NCBI GenBank assembly: GCA_028697145.1
Contig: JAQVFR010000017.1
Coordinates: forward strand, 1-62,059
DNA from: Actinomycetota bacterium
GTDB lineage: Bacteria > Actinomycetota > Geothermincolia > Geothermincolales > RBG-13-55-18
Reading direction: 5' to 3'
DNA length: 62,059 nt
Shown here: piece by piece, positions 30,789 to 41,224 of the stretch
Layout of the letters: each line of letters starts with the position of its first letter
Numbering within the stretch: the first letter of the stretch is position 1
Program-made: the position numbers and the translations under genes
The notes under the pieces: model-generated
Told to the model about the DNA's origin: nothing
Databases searched by the model: none
The model's input: only the letters and a program-made list of their open reading frames with translations

Positions 30789-33700
30789 ATGAGAAGATCG
30801 CATAACTGCTTGCTTGAGGAAGTACGGCCCAGAAGGATATGGCCCCTGGTTGTCACCGCTCTCGTTGTAGGGGCCTATTTCCATTCCATGTTGTTCCTGG
30901 ACAAGGTGCCCAATATCTCCGATATCAGGACCTATTATTACCCGGCCTGGACTTACTTTTCCCACGCGTTCAAGTCCGGAGGGCCTCCCCTGTGGTGCTC
31001 GGGCATATACTGCGGGTTCCCTCTCTTCGCTGACAGCGAGATGGGGGTCTTCTATCCCGTTAACCTCCTTTTCTTTCAACTCCCCGCGACGGCGGGGTTC
31101 AATTACTCCATCATCTTTCATTATCTCCTGGGGGGCTTCTTCGCCTTCGCTTACTGCCGGCTCATCCGCCTCAGCCGTCCCGCCTCGCTATTCGTCGCCA
31201 TACCCTTCGTCCTCGGGGGATTCTTCCTATCCCACATGGTCCACCCTAACGCGGTCGCCACTGCGGCCTGGATGCCTCTCTTTCTCTATTGCCTGGAGAG
31301 AGCCCTGGCTGAAAAGCGGCTCTCGTTCTACGCGCTGGCGGGTGGGGTGCTCGGCGTGCAATCGCTCTCCGGCTTTCTCATGCTTCCTCTCGTTGAGATG
31401 GTACTGGCCCTGTTCTACGTGATCTTCCACCCCTCGCACCGGGGGGAAGGGCGCGGTAGTTCCGTCTTGCGCGCGCTGGGAGGGCTGGCCCTCGCCGCGG
31501 GCCTGGGAGCAGGGGTGGGCATGATACAGAACCTGCCCTCCTACAACCTGGTGCAGAACTCCTATCGGGCCGGAGGGCTCTCGGAGCAGGTCTCGAACAT
31601 CGGCAGCCTGCCGCCGGCCCAGCTGGCGGGAATCGTCTTACCCCGCCTGTTCGGGGCGGGGCTGGCGCAGGGTGATTACCTGGGGGCATGGACCTTCGAG
31701 GAGACATATACCTATATCGGGATAATGCCGCTGCTCTTCGCGCCGGCGGCGCTGTTCAGGCCACGCAAATGGCACGCGGTCTTCTTCCTCTTCGCGGGGG
31801 TGGTATCCGTGCTCCTGAGCTTGGGGGACCGGGGCCTGCTGTGGGCGCTGTTGCGCCATCTGCCCGGCTTCAACGTGCTCAAGGGATCGAGCAGGTTTAT
31901 CCTCACCTTCAACCTCGCGGCGCTCATCCTGGGGGGCATTGGCTTCGACCGCTGGCGGGAGGGCAATCTCTCCGAACGCATGCGCTCCCGCCTCTCGCGC
32001 TTCTGGGCGGTGACCGCCGTGGTTGTCGCCGGTCTTGTCGTCCTCTTCGTATTGCTCTACCGCTTCGACGCGGGGGACTTCCGCACCCTGTCGGAGGCGG
32101 TCGCCCGCCCCCTTACGGCGGGCATAAGCGCTGCCGCGGCAACAGTGGTCGACGGCGTCTATTCCTTCCTCTCCACCCCCCGTCTAGATCTCCTGGTCCC
32201 CCTGGTGATACTGGGGCTGTTCTTTCTGCTAATCCGCAAGGGATACGAGGCATCGGGGCCAAACCGTCTGAAAGTCGGTCTGGCGGTCTTCATAGCCGTC
32301 GTGGACGTCTTCGTGTTCGCGAGCTTCGTCCTCAACCCGGTGTCGAGGGCAAGCGCCGAATACCGGCCGGAGGTGCTGAGCGTGCTCGAGGAATCCGCGC
32401 GCGGCGGCAGGGTGGCCCTGATCAAGGAGCCGGGCGTGAACCGCGGCGAGTTCTCCCTTGCCTCGAACCAGCTCCTCCCCCACGGCCTCGAGGACGCCTT
32501 CGGATTCTCCACCATCCCGCCCGCGCGCCTGGACCGCTTCCTCGGGCTGGTGAACCAGGAGGTCGCCGAGCCGGCCCTGCGGCTGCTCGGGGTGGGACTC
32601 CTCTACAGCAACCTCGTACGCATCGGGGGCATGCCCTACGACCTGTCGATGCCGCATGTCATCCGCGGAGGCATGGGCGCGAACGCCTATGTGTACCCGG
32701 ACGAAACCGTGGGCAGGGAGCTGCGCATGCTACTTGACGGCAGGGTCCTGGAGAAAAACAGCTCGGGGCGCCTGTACATCAAGCTCGACTCCATCTGCCG
32801 GGGACAGGTAAGAACACATCCCACCTTCATGGTGGAGAAGGAGGCGGGCAGCACCGATTACCTGCTCGAGGTGATTGGCGGAGACAGCCCCGCCTCATTC
32901 GAGCCGATCACGTTCACCTCCCCTGGTTTCGGGAAGGGGAGGCTCGCCCTCGAGATAGAGATGCCCCTGGGAGAACTGGGCGAGGCGGACGAGATCATCG
33001 TGACCACTTTCTGCGAAAGCGGCCTAGCTGAAACGCGCCTTGCGGCCGTGAGCGTCATAGACGAGGATGGGCGTGGAGTACCGCTGGGAGCATGGCCGCT
33101 CCTGTTCAGCGACAGCAGGTATGCGGTCTACCAGGTGCCGGATACGCTCCCCCGCGCCTTCGCCGCCTCGGATATCATCTGGACTGCGGACTGGAGGGAA
33201 GCGGTGGACCTCACGTGGAGCGAGGGCATGCTCCCGGACCGGGTGGTGCTCGTCGCCGGCGAGGTCGGCGCCGCTACGAGGGAAGCCATTGAGTCCATCT
33301 CGCCGCGGTCACGAGAGATCCGCGTCGAGTTCGAGGAGGAGGCAGGTGACCGCATGACGCTGCATGCCTCGGGCGATGATGACGCCGTCCTCGTCATAGG
33401 CATGGACCATCTGCCCGGCTGGAGCGCCCTCGTGGACGGGACGGAGGCCGAGATCTTCTCCGCCTACGGCTTCTTGAGCGCCATATACCTTCCGGCGGGA
33501 GACCACCGGGTGGAACTGTCATATCGCTCTCCAGGGCTTTCCGCTGGCATGGCCGTATCGGCGGCATCCCTGTTCCTGCTGCTCCTCCTGTGGGCCTTCC
33601 TGTGGAGGAGGGAGCGCGCCGCCTCCGCGGCCGCCAGGAACGGAACGGCGGAAGTCCCGCCTCCGGCCGGGGGTGGGATCAGCGCTTTCTTCCCCTGTTA

Positions 33701-34370
33701 CAACGACTCCTCCACCCTGCAGGCGCTCATCGAGGAAGCCTTGGGCGTTCTGGGAGCTATCACCTCCGAATACGAGGTGATCATAGTGGACGACGGCAGC
33801 TCGGACAGCTCCGGCGCGGTCATCGACTCCCTGGCCGCCAGTTGCGAGAGGGTGCGTGTGGTGCGCCACGACCGTAACCGCGGTTACGGGGCGGCGCTGC
33901 GCAGCGGCATCAAGACCTCGACCATGGAATGGGTGTTCTACACCGACAGCGACGGGCAGTACGACGTGGGCGACCTGCTCCGCCTGCACCGGCTCAGCGG
34001 CACCGCGGACGTTGTCAACGGTTACAAGCGCAGCCGCAGTGACCCGTGGTATCGCGTCTTCCTAGGCGCCGCCTATAACGCGGTCATCCGCCTCATCTTC
34101 GCCATCCCCATCCGTGATACTGACTGCGACTTCCGCCTCATGCGGGGAGAGCTCGTGCGCGGCCTCGACCTGCGTTCGGAAGGAGGGGCCATCTGCGTGG
34201 AGCTGGTCAAGGGACTGCAGGCGGCAGAGGCCACATTCGCCGAGATGCCGGTTGAGCATTATCCCCGCGAGGAGGGAAAGAGCCAGTTCTTCAGGTTGAA
34301 GAATCTGGTTGTAATGGGAGGGGAGCTTGCGTCATTATGGTGGAGGCTCCTGAAGAGAGGTGAGGTTTAG
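30789..34370 (+). CDS. YfhO-like membrane protein fused to GT2 glycosyltransferase
   Basis: The protein is 1193 residues in one uninterrupted frame. Residues 1 to about 950 form a YfhO-like protein with many membrane segments, an early luminal loop with YYYPAWTYF, a large extracytoplasmic beta-rich region and a last helix near 920-940. Residues from about 963 are a complete GT2 domain: FFPCYNDSSTLQALIEEAL, VIIVDDGSSDSS, the DxD-type YTDSDGQYD and DTDCDFRLMRG. In Bacillus subtilis the corresponding functions are separate genes, csbB and yfhO, which cooperate in polyprenyl-phosphate-dependent glycosylation of a surface polymer. The start has a weak ribosome site. Substrate and acceptor are unknown. 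Confidence 0.85.
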   Translation: MRRSHNCLLEEVRPRRIWPLVVTALVVGAYFHSMLFLDKVPNISDIRTYYYPAWTYFSHAFKSGGPPLWCSGIYCGFPLFADSEMGVFYPVNLLFFQLPATAGFNYSIIFHYLLGGFFAFAYCRLIRLSRPASLFVAIPFVLGGFFLSHMVHPNAVATAAWMPLFLYCLERALAEKRLSFYALAGGVLGVQSLSGFLMLPLVEMVLALFYVIFHPSHRGEGRGSSVLRALGGLALAAGLGAGVGMIQNLPSYNLVQNSYRAGGLSEQVSNIGSLPPAQLAGIVLPRLFGAGLAQGDYLGAWTFEETYTYIGIMPLLFAPAALFRPRKWHAVFFLFAGVVSVLLSLGDRGLLWALLRHLPGFNVLKGSSRFILTFNLAALILGGIGFDRWREGNLSERMRSRLSRFWAVTAVVVAGLVVLFVLLYRFDAGDFRTLSEAVARPLTAGISAAAATVVDGVYSFLSTPRLDLLVPLVILGLFFLLIRKGYEASGPNRLKVGLAVFIAVVDVFVFASFVLNPVSRASAEYRPEVLSVLEESARGGRVALIKEPGVNRGEFSLASNQLLPHGLEDAFGFSTIPPARLDRFLGLVNQEVAEPALRLLGVGLLYSNLVRIGGMPYDLSMPHVIRGGMGANAYVYPDETVGRELRMLLDGRVLEKNSSGRLYIKLDSICRGQVRTHPTFMVEKEAGSTDYLLEVIGGDSPASFEPITFTSPGFGKGRLALEIEMPLGELGEADEIIVTTFCESGLAETRLAAVSVIDEDGRGVPLGAWPLLFSDSRYAVYQVPDTLPRAFAASDIIWTADWREAVDLTWSEGMLPDRVVLVAGEVGAATREAIESISPRSREIRVEFEEEAGDRMTLHASGDDDAVLVIGMDHLPGWSALVDGTEAEIFSAYGFLSAIYLPAGDHRVELSYRSPGLSAGMAVSAASLFLLLLLWAFLWRRERAASAAARNGTAEVPPPAGGGISAFFPCYNDSSTLQALIEEALGVLGAITSEYEVIIVDDGSSDSSGAVIDSLAASCERVRVVRHDRNRGYGAALRSGIKTSTMEWVFYTDSDGQYDVGDLLRLHRLSGTADVVNGYKRSRSDPWYRVFLGAAYNAVIRLIFAIPIRDTDCDFRLMRGELVRGLDLRSEGGAICVELVKGLQAAEATFAEMPVEHYPREEGKSQFFRLKNLVVMGGELASLWWRLLKRGEV

Positions 34371-34371
34371 G

Positions 34372-35418
34372 GTGCAGGGATCACCACGACTCTCTGGGTA
34401 TTACAGCGGGAAACGGGTCCTCGTAACCGGAGGGATGGGGTTCATCGGCAGCAACCTGGTCAGACACCTGGTGCGGCTGGGCGCGAGCGTGACCGTCATC
34501 GACGCGTGTTTCCCCGACCAGGGCGCCAACCTGTTCAACCTGAGGGAGGTCCTCGAAGACCTGGTGCTGGTCGTGGCGGATATAGGTTCCTCCAACGAGA
34601 TATCCAGCTACATCGTCGACCAGGAACTGGTGTTCAACCTGGCTTCCTGCATCAGCCACATCGGGTCCCTGCACAACCCATTCCAGGACCTCGAGCGCAA
34701 CTGTTTCAGCCAGCTCCGCTTTCTGAGCGCCCTCTCGGAACTCAGCCCGCGTGCCCGCGTCATCTACACCGGATCCCGCAGCCAGTACGGGAACCCGGTC
34801 TATGCCCCCATCGACGAGGACCACCCCCTCAAGCCCCTGGACATAAACGGCGTACACAAGACCACGGTCGAGGAGTATCATCGCATCTTCCATGGTTTGG
34901 GGCATATTACGTTCACCTCGCTGCGGCTGACCAACATCTTCGGCCCGCACCACCAGATGCACCACGACGGCCAGGGATTCCTCAACTGGTTCATCCGCCA
35001 GGGACTGTCCGGCCAGGAGATCTGTGTCTTTGGCGACGGCAGCCAGGAGAGGGACTTCCTCTATGTGGATGACGTCGTCGAAGCCCTTCTGCTCGTAGCC
35101 CCGGAAAAGCGGAGCGAAGGGGGCATCTTCAACCTGGCATCCGGAATACCCGTGACCGTGGCCGAGGCCGCCGAGGCGGTATGCGGCCTCACGGGCACGT
35201 CCTGGCGGCGAATCCCCTATCCGCCGGAACGCTGTTCCGTCGAGCCCGGCAGCCTGCGCATTGACGGTTCCCGCTTGCAGAAGCTGCTCGGGTGGACTCC
35301 CGGTTCGGACTTGCGCAACAGTCTCGCGGAGACCATTTCATTCTACCGCCGACACGGCTCGCGCTATTTCCACGGCCAGAGGGGCAACGTCTTTTATTCC
35401 GAGAAAGGCCTGGATTGA
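34372..35418 (+). CDS. NAD-dependent epimerase/dehydratase (extended SDR), Tyr replaced by Asn
   Basis: The protein is 348 residues. The Rossmann motif is VTGGMGFIG with glycines at 20, 23 and 26. The catalytic-region Ser/Thr block is YTGSRSQYGNP. Where extended SDRs have YxxxK, this protein has NGVHK (Asn159...Lys163), so the usual catalytic tyrosine is missing. Later blocks (SLRLTNIFGPHHQM, DFLYVDDVVEAL, FNLASGIPVTV) are typical of nucleotide-sugar enzymes. Start is GTG 34372, one base after the upstream stop, with GAGGT upstream; GTG 34360 is an alternative. It likely modifies a nucleotide sugar. Confidence 0.85.
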   Translation: MQGSPRLSGYYSGKRVLVTGGMGFIGSNLVRHLVRLGASVTVIDACFPDQGANLFNLREVLEDLVLVVADIGSSNEISSYIVDQELVFNLASCISHIGSLHNPFQDLERNCFSQLRFLSALSELSPRARVIYTGSRSQYGNPVYAPIDEDHPLKPLDINGVHKTTVEEYHRIFHGLGHITFTSLRLTNIFGPHHQMHHDGQGFLNWFIRQGLSGQEICVFGDGSQERDFLYVDDVVEALLLVAPEKRSEGGIFNLASGIPVTVAEAAEAVCGLTGTSWRRIPYPPERCSVEPGSLRIDGSRLQKLLGWTPGSDLRNSLAETISFYRRHGSRYFHGQRGNVFYSEKGLD

Positions 35419-36530
35419 AAGCGTTCGACATCCCTTTCCTGGACCTCTCGCGCCAGGATGCAGAGCTGGCCGCAGAGCTTAACGAGGCCTTCTCCCTCTT
35501 TCTGCGGCGGGGCATCCACGTGCTCGGCCCGGAGGTGTCCTCGCTCGAGAGCGAATTCGCCGCCTTCTGCGGTACCTCCGCGGGCGTCGGCTTGGCGTCG
35601 GGGACCGACGCACTGCTGCTCGCCCTCAAGGCCCTGGGCGCGCAATCCGGGGACGAGGTCATAACGCCCGCCCTCTCTGCCCCTCCTACGGCCGTTGCGG
35701 TATCCCTCGCAGGAGCGGTCCCCGTCTATACCGACATCGACGCCACGACACTCTGCATCGACCCCTCCCTGGTCGCGGAGAGGATCACCGCCCGTTCCCG
35801 TTTCCTGCTCGTGGTCCACCTCTACGGGCGCATGGCGGACATGGGGCCGCTGGCCGCAGTGGCACGCGAGCACGGGCTCATCCTGCTCGAGGACTGCGCC
35901 CAGGCCCACGGCGCCGCCGTCTCGGGGAAGGCGGCCGGGACCTGGGGACGTGCCGGCTCCTACAGCTTTTACCCCACCAAGAACCTGGGGGCCTACGGGG
36001 ACGGGGGCATGGTGGTCACGGACGACGCCGGGCTGGCAGAGCGCCTGCGCTCGCTGCGGGACTACGGTCGCATCGACCGCGATCGCCTCGGGGAGATTGG
36101 CTTCAACAGCCGCCTGGACGAGCTGCAGGCCGCCTTGCTGCGAGTGAAGCTCGGGCACCTGGAAAGGTGGAACCGGAGGCGGCGTGAGCTCGCGAGGCGC
36201 TACCTCGAAGGGCTTGACGGCTTGCCCTTGCGCCTGCCGCGATGGGACGGGGGCGAGGAGCACTGCTTTCATCTTTTCGTCGTGGAATGCGAGGAACGCG
36301 AGGCTTTGCGTTCGCACCTCGAGGAAAGGGGCATCCAAGCCGCGGTGCACTATCCCGTCCCGCTCCACCGGCAGCCCCCCTACAGGGACGGGGGAGCCCC
36401 CCCACGTTCCTTCCCCGTCACCGAGCGAGTGGCGGCGCAGGCGCTCTCGCTGCCCCTTTACCCTTACTTGAGAGAGGACGAGCAGGAAAGGATCGTGGAG
36501 GCCGTGCGTGATTTCTTCGGGGTCTCCTGA
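35415..36530 (+). CDS. DegT/DnrJ/EryC1/StrS-family sugar aminotransferase
   Basis: The protein is 371 residues. The PLP lysine is Lys189 in FYPTKNLGAYGDGGMVV, and the fold-I aminotransferase blocks LASGTDALLLAL, LLEDCAQAHGA and GFNSRLDELQAALL are present. Family members aminate keto-sugar nucleotides. The start is TTG 35415, overlapping the epimerase stop by four bases, with GAGAAAGG upstream. Together with the preceding genes this suggests synthesis of an amino sugar that the YfhO-GT2 protein could use. It converges on the nitroreductase with 7 nt between stops. Confidence 0.88.
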   Translation: MKAFDIPFLDLSRQDAELAAELNEAFSLFLRRGIHVLGPEVSSLESEFAAFCGTSAGVGLASGTDALLLALKALGAQSGDEVITPALSAPPTAVAVSLAGAVPVYTDIDATTLCIDPSLVAERITARSRFLLVVHLYGRMADMGPLAAVAREHGLILLEDCAQAHGAAVSGKAAGTWGRAGSYSFYPTKNLGAYGDGGMVVTDDAGLAERLRSLRDYGRIDRDRLGEIGFNSRLDELQAALLRVKLGHLERWNRRRRELARRYLEGLDGLPLRLPRWDGGEEHCFHLFVVECEEREALRSHLEERGIQAAVHYPVPLHRQPPYRDGGAPPRSFPVTERVAAQALSLPLYPYLREDEQERIVEAVRDFFGVS

Positions 36531-40143: not shown

Positions 40144-40563
40144 CTAGTCCCGTGTCCAGTAGACGCGCGCGAAATCGGAGTGGTGCTGCCACTGTATGTC
40201 GAGATGGCCGGAGAACGCCTTCTCGAACTCCTTCCCGAGCCGCTCGGCCAGGACGCGGTCGGTGGTCTCGATCATGATCTCTTCTTTCTTCTCCTCGATA
40301 TGATAGATGCGTGCGGCGATATTCTTGCGCAGTTTTTTCTGCGCCACGCTGCGTATGAGGTTCTTCGCTTCCTCCCGATGCTTATCGATGAAATCCCCCC
40401 TGAGATAGACCACGCCGTCAACCTGACCTTTTGCCACCCTCTCGCAGCCGGGGCACAGGTGCTTCTCCCACCCGTTGCCCTTCATGGCCTTGGCCCTGAC
40501 CGCCTCGTCGAAGTCCCATTTCTGGTCGATGCAAACGGCATAGCAGGAAGGACAAATCTTCAT
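40144..40563 (-). CDS. BCAM0308-like zinc-ribbon protein
   Basis: The protein is 139 residues. N-terminal cysteines (Cys4, Cys7) and a second pair (LCPGCERV) form a zinc ribbon resembling that of NMD3-type proteins, as in the BCAM0308 family. The C-terminal half is charged and mixed alpha/beta (IYHIEEKKEEIMIETTD). No function is established. The ribosome site GAAGGAGGA precedes the ATG. The THEP1-like NTPase gene ends 32 nt upstream, and the two may be co-transcribed. Confidence 0.75.
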   Translation of the reverse strand: MKICPSCYAVCIDQKWDFDEAVRAKAMKGNGWEKHLCPGCERVAKGQVDGVVYLRGDFIDKHREEAKNLIRSVAQKKLRKNIAARIYHIEEKKEEIMIETTDRVLAERLGKEFEKAFSGHLDIQWQHHSDFARVYWTRD

Positions 40564-40595: not shown

Positions 40596-41132
40596 TCATC
40601 TGTCCGTTAAGATCCTGCGTATAGACCCATATATCACCTCCAACAGGGCTTCACGGTTCGCGGGACCGAGCGCGTACACGGAGACGTCATCCCTGGAAAG
40701 GATATCGGCCAGGAATGCGTCGTTCCCGGAATGCGCCGTGGCCAGCAGGGGCACGGGCGCATCAAGAAGGTCCTTGAGGGTTGAACGGAAAGCGGCAGAG
40801 AACAGTTCCATGCGTCCGATCTCGTCTATTATCATCACGTCCGCCCCCGCCCCCCCTTCCAGGGCACGCAGGGCTATCCTCTCGAACGACGCGACGTCAA
40901 CGCCGTATTTCCCTACCCGTTGTCCTCCCTTGTAAGCGACGTGTGCAAGAATACCGGCATCTCCCCCCAGGTCTCGTACCTGGAACCCGATGCGATCGCG
41001 GCCTTCCCTTATCTCCTCGGTCACGAATCCCGCCGTCTTGAACCCGTGCTGGGCGAACCGCTCGACCAACCTCACCACAAGGGTGGTTTTACCGCTTCCG
41101 GGCCTTCCCGTTACCAGGATGTTATCTGACAT
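40596..41132 (-). CDS. THEP1-like nucleoside-triphosphatase
   Basis: The protein is 178 residues. Walker A ILVTGRPGSGKTTLVVRL (9-17), the conserved GFVTEEIREG, and Walker B MIIDEIGRMEL identify the NTPase family of human NTPCR and Aquifex THEP1. These hydrolyse various NTPs slowly and are not well understood physiologically. ATG 41132 follows AGGGGGCGG; a longer frame upstream has no site. Confidence 0.9.
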   Translation of the reverse strand: MSDNILVTGRPGSGKTTLVVRLVERFAQHGFKTAGFVTEEIREGRDRIGFQVRDLGGDAGILAHVAYKGGQRVGKYGVDVASFERIALRALEGGAGADVMIIDEIGRMELFSAAFRSTLKDLLDAPVPLLATAHSGNDAFLADILSRDDVSVYALGPANREALLEVIYGSIRRILTDR

Positions 41133-41224
41133 CCGCCCCCTTGTCCTTCGCGGATGGGGCAAGCCGTGGCTTTCATGCCGGCGGTTATTCCGCTCGATAA
41201 TAATAATCTACCCCGGGAGACGTT

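Follow-up and report, generated by a model that had tools for sequence, protein, structure and literature searches.

The window analyzed here, the whole of a 62,059-nucleotide stretch of DNA, is contig JAQVFR010000017.1 (C45) of a 2.98-Mb genome, 97.6% complete, from an Actinomycetota bacterium of the class Geothermincolia. Between housekeeping genes that lie on the opposite strand on either side, three plus-strand open reading frames (ORFs), collectively termed the cassette, encode a fusion of a YfhO-like membrane protein with a family 2 glycosyltransferase (GT2), a short-chain dehydrogenase/reductase (SDR) and a DegT-type aminotransferase (Table 1). The close packing reported in a first-pass annotation, made from the sequence alone, was confirmed by the coordinates: a TAG stop (34368-34370) ends the fusion a single nucleotide before the GTG start of the SDR at 34372, and the TTG start of the aminotransferase at 35415 shares a 4-nt overlap, TTGA, with the SDR stop. 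A longer SDR starting at an alternative GTG (34360) would overlap the fusion, and the aminotransferase ORF listed from 35292 carries an N-terminal extension that is unconserved.

Table 1. Coordinates of the cassette genes and their parts in the window.
Feature	Coordinates	Strand	Basis
CDS, 1193 aa: YfhO-type GT-C membrane glycosyltransferase + GT2 polyprenyl-phosphate sugar transferase (putative)	30789..34370	+	Pfam, conservation, model, Foldseek
GT-C transmembrane core, residues 18-540; invariant Asp45 (30921-30923) after first membrane helix	30840..32408	+	hydropathy, Foldseek
Large loop domain, residues 541-912; mainly beta strand in model, predicted extracytoplasmic	32409..33524	+	model, topology
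Last transmembrane helix, residues 917-950; followed by poorly conserved linker 951-961	33537..33638	+	model, hydropathy
GT2 (GT-A fold) domain, residues 962-1190; invariant DDGS and DxDGQYD, without own membrane helix	33672..34358	+	Pfam, alignment, Foldseek
CDS, 348 aa: extended SDR, NGxxK for YxxxK (Asn159 at 34846-34848), invariant Arg136 and Asp157	34372..35418	+	alignments
CDS, 371 aa: DegT/DnrJ/EryC1/StrS sugar aminotransferase, invariant pyridoxal phosphate (PLP) lysine K189 (35979-35981)	35415..36530	+	Pfam, alignment

Architecture and conservation of the fusion

That one frame joins the two transferases is agreed on by Pfam, an AlphaFold model and Foldseek. The YfhO profile (PF09586) matched residues 863-924 at 45.9 bits against a cut-off of 28.5, a match confined to profile positions 774-835 (the last 62), and Glycos_transf_2 matched residues 965-1068 at 81.1 bits. 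The model, which covers all 1193 residues (mean pLDDT, the predicted local distance difference score, 78.5; predicted template modeling score, pTM, 0.70), has a GT-C fold in its N-terminal part, for which Foldseek returned AftD, PglB and OST with high root-mean-square deviation and modest TM-scores, values to be expected of GT-C enzymes so distantly related. The C-terminal ~230 residues returned ArnC, DPMS and GtrB. By sequence, no solved structure is closer to the GT2 half than ArnC, which also ranks among the nearest by fold. In an alignment of 13 full-length fusions, residues of catalytic type, D45 in the first GT-C loop and the motifs DDGS, DxDGQYD and DCDFRL, are invariant, as are D82 and E84 in the GT-C core; the linker joining the halves is the least conserved stretch.

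Alignment-averaged hydropathy indicates 12 transmembrane segments. Since this number is even, the N-terminus and the GT2 domain are both predicted to lie inside and a 405-aa loop outside, a call that depends on parity and would be overturned by a single missed helix. This topology fits the earlier suggestion that sugar is loaded inside and transferred outside. Multi-component transmembrane glycosylation pairs a GT-A sugar transferase, which the GT2 half resembles in fold and sequence, with a GT-C membrane transferase bearing a large extracytoplasmic loop, as PF09586, Foldseek and the predicted topology identify in the other half. Lacking any membrane helix of its own, the GT2 half would be anchored by the fusion beside the user of its product; most GT2 ORFs of unfused relatives span 235-280 aa.

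We searched a sample of 39 related genomes for proteins with the same domain order. Full-length fusions were present in 13 genomes from four families, at 36-69% identity to the window copy (same family, 51-69%; two further families of the order, 38-40%; a fourth family of the class, 39%). Candidatus Solincola and other Actinomycetota metagenome-assembled genomes (MAGs) are the named relatives that carry it. In most fusion genomes, and in nearly all of those whose contig runs on past the fusion, an SDR and then an aminotransferase follow in the same order, so the neighbors are conserved together with the fusion, and the arrangement is far beyond chance. The SDR (E <= 1e-90) tracked this pattern exactly: of the 39 relatives, all 18 with the fusion or its GT2 at 45% identity or more have it, and the remaining 21, among them G001 from the same genus as the window, do not; because of shared ancestry these counts are not independent. 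In G036, a 40%-identical GT2 adjoins a GtrA gene, and such an SDR was not found.

In a quick LG+G4 tree of GT2 domains, built without bootstrap, all fused GT2s fell into one clade (17 rows; approximate likelihood ratio support, SH-aLRT, 99). This clade also includes a contig-end fragment from G003, a GT2-only copy from G017, and the copies from one genus, g3 (G004 and G008), in which the YfhO and GT2 halves lie in different frames. In G004 (L046 3195-6809) the YfhO-GT2 region is spread over four frames: it has frameshifts, and the GT2 part contains two in-frame stops. The SDR and aminotransferase reading frames beside it remain open; the MAG is 78% complete. Whether this reflects decay or poor assembly, it is a real exception.

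It is also common for genomes of the class (G018, G020, G021, G024, G026, G027 and others) to encode another YfhO-like protein that is not fused, followed about 1 kb downstream by a separate GT2 gene. No GtrA flippase was found in the genomes that carry this pair.

An unfused module in other phyla

Scanning 85,000 species genomes with the fusion alignment turned up proteins about 39-52% identical to the GT2 half. They come from Acidobacteriota, Chloroflexota, Wallbacteria, Verrucomicrobiota, KSB1, Deltaproteobacteria and one Aenigmatarchaeote. We then scanned the neighborhoods of 74 unfused GT2 loci with hidden Markov models, counting partners on the same strand within 4 kb. An aminotransferase was present in 42 and an SDR of the cassette type, in which Asn stands at the catalytic tyrosine position (Asn-type; see below), in 35, with both in 26. 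Tyr-type SDRs, counted as a control, were present in 4; other GT2 genes of these loci were unsuited as a control, since 20 of 22 sit no more than 4 kb from the focal GT2. The combination of GT2, SDR and aminotransferase is an older, unfused module found in at least five phyla.

YfhO adjoins the GT2 in 6 of these 74 loci. One, from the Vicinamibacteria (L072), encodes separate YfhO, GT2, SDR and aminotransferase proteins in an order identical to that of the fusion cassette, while in an Anaerolineae locus (L105) the order is GT2-SDR-aminotransferase-YfhO. At several other loci with the triad, PMT_2 or DUF2079 membrane proteins adjoin. An Acidobacteria MAG encodes the Asn-type SDR and a DegT aminotransferase in one 849-aa frame (L117 3967-6513). 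Long GT2 frames outside the class (L065, L090 and L107) have an N-terminal part with no recognizable Pfam domain and may be merely extended frames. A single origin of the fusion within this actinobacterial class is most likely, its source being the older unfused module of GT2, SDR and aminotransferase, with or without a GT-C protein.

In an Aenigmatarchaeota MAG (L063 6409-9700), genes for a PMT_2-type GT-C protein, a GT2 and an Asn-type SDR are adjacent, and an aminotransferase gene lies some 5 kb upstream; the MAG may be contaminated.

A tyrosine-less SDR paired with an aminotransferase

The first-pass annotation had called the SDR epimerase-like. In its fold the description holds, as the protein has a Rossmann fold with the glycine-rich NAD motif and is modeled as an ordinary extended SDR. 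In its active site it does not: aligned to solved epimerases, the cassette SDR has Asn where they have the catalytic tyrosine, which sets it apart from canonical epimerases and dehydratases. Asn159, Arg136 and Asp157 are present in 15 of 15 orthologs and in 41 of 41 wider members; orthologs read NGxxK in place of YxxxK, and the Lys is lost in 5 of the 41. By comparison, of the neighboring SDRs of other families in the same loci, 10 of the 11 that could be read have Tyr at that position. Tyr is also kept by two near relatives, on a plasmid (L149) and in a phage record (L151), and neither has an aminotransferase alongside, whereas each of three plasmid copies with Asn has one beside it. His96 at first resembled a part of the active-site signature, but the same His is present in RmlB-type dehydratases ('SHV'), and it is left out of the signature.

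Nucleotide-sugar SDRs without the catalytic tyrosine have a precedent in the Mx3K-type UDP-N-acetylglucosamine 4,6-dehydratases WbpM and PglF, which carry Met, use a Thr-Asp-Lys set and have a Thr-Asp pair take over the work of the tyrosine (PMC8987622). The cassette clade instead has Asn159, Arg136 and Asp157. The position that seemingly matches the catalytic Asp of WbpM and PglF, a correspondence drawn from the motif and not from superposition, is the invariant Arg, making a different SDR chemistry likely.

The aminotransferase matched the DegT/DnrJ/EryC1/StrS profile at 360.5 bits (cut-off 19.8), and its PLP lysine is invariant. Its nearest named solved relatives are DesV (2oga; 464 bits), QdtB (432) and WbpE (361), which act at C3 of the sugar; ArnB (255-267 bits) and perosamine synthetase (about 255) ranked lower. 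This sequence ranking hints at a 3-amino sugar, though rank alone cannot show specificity, and no FdtA/QdtA-type 3,4-ketoisomerase that could feed a 3-aminotransferase was found in the genome. Together, the SDR and aminotransferase probably make an unusual amino sugar. Nothing relevant on an Asn-type SDR or a GT2/GT-C fusion appeared in open-access literature text, and the Asn-type SDR paired with an aminotransferase is the least explained and most interesting part of the cassette.

A Tyr-keeping relative of this SDR clade is carried by a 735-kb record of an uncultured huge phage (L151 8001-8954).

A proposed transmembrane glycosylation route

The cassette would work like the CsbB/GtcA/YfhO systems of Bacillus subtilis, Staphylococcus aureus and Listeria monocytogenes (PMC8035078, PMC5836110), minus their customary GtrA flippase and plus a fusion and two sugar enzymes. 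Both combine a GT-A polyprenyl-phosphate sugar transferase with a YfhO-type GT-C protein whose large extracytoplasmic loop lies between the last two helices, and in B. subtilis YfhO is needed together with CsbB for N-acetylglucosamine modification of lipoteichoic acid (PMC5836110). The parallel, drawn in the first-pass annotation, is apt, because the unfused Vicinamibacteria locus keeps the gene order of the cassette. In the cassette, by contrast, the two transferases are a single polypeptide whose GT2 part lacks membrane helices, and two sugar-modifying enzymes are co-encoded.

Two further systems share parts of this plan. The Arn pathway comprises the same four kinds of activity: an SDR (a domain of ArnA), an aminotransferase (ArnB), a GT2 (ArnC) and a GT-C transferase (ArnT). 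Unlike in Arn, the GT-C half of the cassette is YfhO-type and not ArnT-like, its aminotransferase is far nearer DesV and QdtB than ArnB, its SDR lacks the tyrosine, and an ArnE/F-like SMR protein was not found in the genome; scores fell far short of the cut-offs of the Arn equivalog models (ArnC, 67 bits against 529; ArnB, 211 against 631), and the cassette is not a member of this pathway. For the fusion itself, Mycobacterium tuberculosis Ppm1 provides a precedent, joining a membrane-embedded envelope enzyme (an N-terminal Lnt domain) to a C-terminal GT2, here a polyprenyl-phosphate-mannose synthase; in relatives, separate adjacent genes encode the two domains (PMC3460810). The partner in Ppm1 is an acyltransferase, whereas in the cassette it is a GT-C protein that would use the product of the GT2.

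Domain composition, fold kinship, predicted topology, synteny and co-occurrence are the direct results of this analysis, and their best reading, in keeping with the first-pass annotation, is that the cassette makes an amino sugar, loads it onto a lipid and transfers it outside. The SDR and aminotransferase would convert a nucleotide sugar to an amino-sugar nucleotide. The C-terminal GT2, held at the inner membrane face by the last YfhO helix, would load the sugar onto polyprenyl phosphate, as its kinship to ArnC, DPMS and GtrB suggests. A flippase encoded elsewhere, probably of the Wzx/MOP type because GtrA is absent, would turn the lipid-linked sugar to the outer face. There, by analogy with CsbB-YfhO genetics, the GT-C half would pass the sugar to an acceptor on the extracytoplasmic side, a wall glycopolymer being the likeliest. 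We assign a probability of roughly two in three to this route around one two-sided enzyme, with the steps as proposed and the fusion arising once in the class.

Several observations weigh against this proposal. Searches of the genome and of 31 genomes of the class turned up no GtrA-type flippase (PF04138), an SMR protein was not found genome-wide, and no flippase is linked to the cassette. Without GtrA, we do not file the cassette as a CsbB/GtcA/YfhO system proper, and the earlier description of the module as self-contained does not stand: the lipid-linked sugar must be turned either by a Wzx/MOP protein, a type encoded elsewhere in the genome, or by an unknown flippase. For multi-component transmembrane glycosylation, a variant with Wzx-type flippases has been proposed (PMC8035078). 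In addition, an SDR without the catalytic tyrosine is not expected to oxidize a sugar by the usual route. The gene association is also imperfect: 48 of the 74 unfused GT2 loci lack both partners together within 4 kb, partly since contigs end; G015 and G017 have their nearest Asn-type SDR on a different contig, and no YfhO was seen beside the GT2 of G017. Lastly, plasmids of Azospirillum (L148 and L150) and Indioceanicola (L147) carry an Asn-type SDR and an aminotransferase with no close GT2 relative adjacent, and the Azospirillum pairs indicate that the SDR and aminotransferase are not tied to lipid-linked transfer.

The acceptor could alternatively be a surface protein, with the GT-C half acting on secreted proteins in a Pgf-like O-glycosylation. 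In the Pgf operon of Streptococcus mutans, a GT-A enzyme (PgfS), membrane proteins (PgfM1 and PgfM2) weakly matched by the YfhO tail, and an SDR (PgfE) modify surface proteins (PMC5856776). The fusion is matched by Pgf equivalog models, all below the curated cut-offs: its GT2 by PgfS (44 bits against 500) and its YfhO tail by PgfM1 (25 against 1400) and PgfM2 (38 against 1500). A search of the genome for a teichoic acid polymerase of the TagF type found none. Pgf has no fusion and no aminotransferase, and its PgfE is described as a UDP-glucose 4-epimerase (PMC5856776). Against a protein acceptor, no candidate is encoded beside the cassette, two LCP proteins in the genome suggest a wall-linked glycopolymer as the acceptor, and characterized YfhO proteins modify lipoteichoic or wall teichoic acid (PMC8035078). 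We regard a protein acceptor as unlikely, while taking it seriously.

Loss of the catalytic tyrosine raises another reading, in which the SDR is a dead or structural partner and not the redox enzyme of the pathway, and the aminotransferase uses a keto-sugar made elsewhere, such as the product of RmlB. The replacement of Tyr by Asn in all 41 members and the loss of Lys in 5 would fit, and a genuine RmlB is encoded at G000:C25 (462.7 bits). A dead enzyme, however, would have no need of the NAD motif, Asp44, Arg136, Asp157 and Asn159 that are invariant over at least five phyla, WbpM and PglF are active with no such tyrosine (PMC8987622), and the genome yielded no FdtA/QdtA ketoisomerase to feed a 3-aminotransferase. 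We consider an inactive SDR doubtful.

Improbable, too, is a reading in which the GT2 step comes first and the SDR and aminotransferase then modify the lipid-linked sugar, as DprE1 and DprE2 do in making decaprenyl-phosphate arabinose. The tight GT2-SDR-aminotransferase gene order in many phyla would accommodate it, but the plasmid pairs with no adjacent GT2 relative argue against it, as do the named solved relatives of both enzymes, which use nucleotide sugars. Finally, an assembly artefact or chance neighborhood of unrelated genes, for which the frame-split copies of genus g3 and the stops in G004 might speak, is rejected for this lineage by the 13 full-length fusions in four families with conserved neighbors and one fixed chromosomal site within the family, and by the g3 copies branching within the clade of fused GT2s; of the refutation foreseen at the outset, separate halves in close relatives are thus real and the artefact is not.

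If the two-sided route is correct, one protein performs both glycosyl transfers of transmembrane glycosylation, and the hand-over of lipid-linked sugar between enzymes, as well as the need for a flippase, become testable on a single polypeptide. The triad with a tyrosine-less SDR points to unexplored nucleotide-sugar chemistry, for which NGxxK with Arg136 and Asp157 beside an aminotransferase is a concrete genome marker. As a tentative extension, and one that we would not expect to hold in full, the Asn-type SDR may represent a new class of enzyme and, together with the paired aminotransferase, make an undescribed amino-sugar donor by tyrosine-free chemistry; many bacterial phyla, and perhaps some archaea, would use this donor as a lipid-linked surface sugar, and in this actinobacterial class the inner and outer transferases would have merged into a single polypeptide, keeping the lipid-linked sugar local to one protein.

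The site that the cassette occupies within the family lies between a UDG/tsaE/tsaB/rimI/tsaD/groES side and a nitroreductase/peptidase S58/CCA-transferase side. UDG, nitroreductase and S58 were confirmed by Pfam; the others are presumptive, named by sequence recognition. An Rfam search found no RNA elements at the locus, and a promoter and terminator scan found two weak promoter-like sites, none upstream of the cassette on the plus strand. Elsewhere in the window, on the minus strand, an NMD3-family protein (PF04981, 33 bits; 40144-40563) adjoins a PF03266 NTPase (164.7 bits; 40596-41162), so that two families associated with archaea and eukaryotes are adjacent in an actinobacterial genome.

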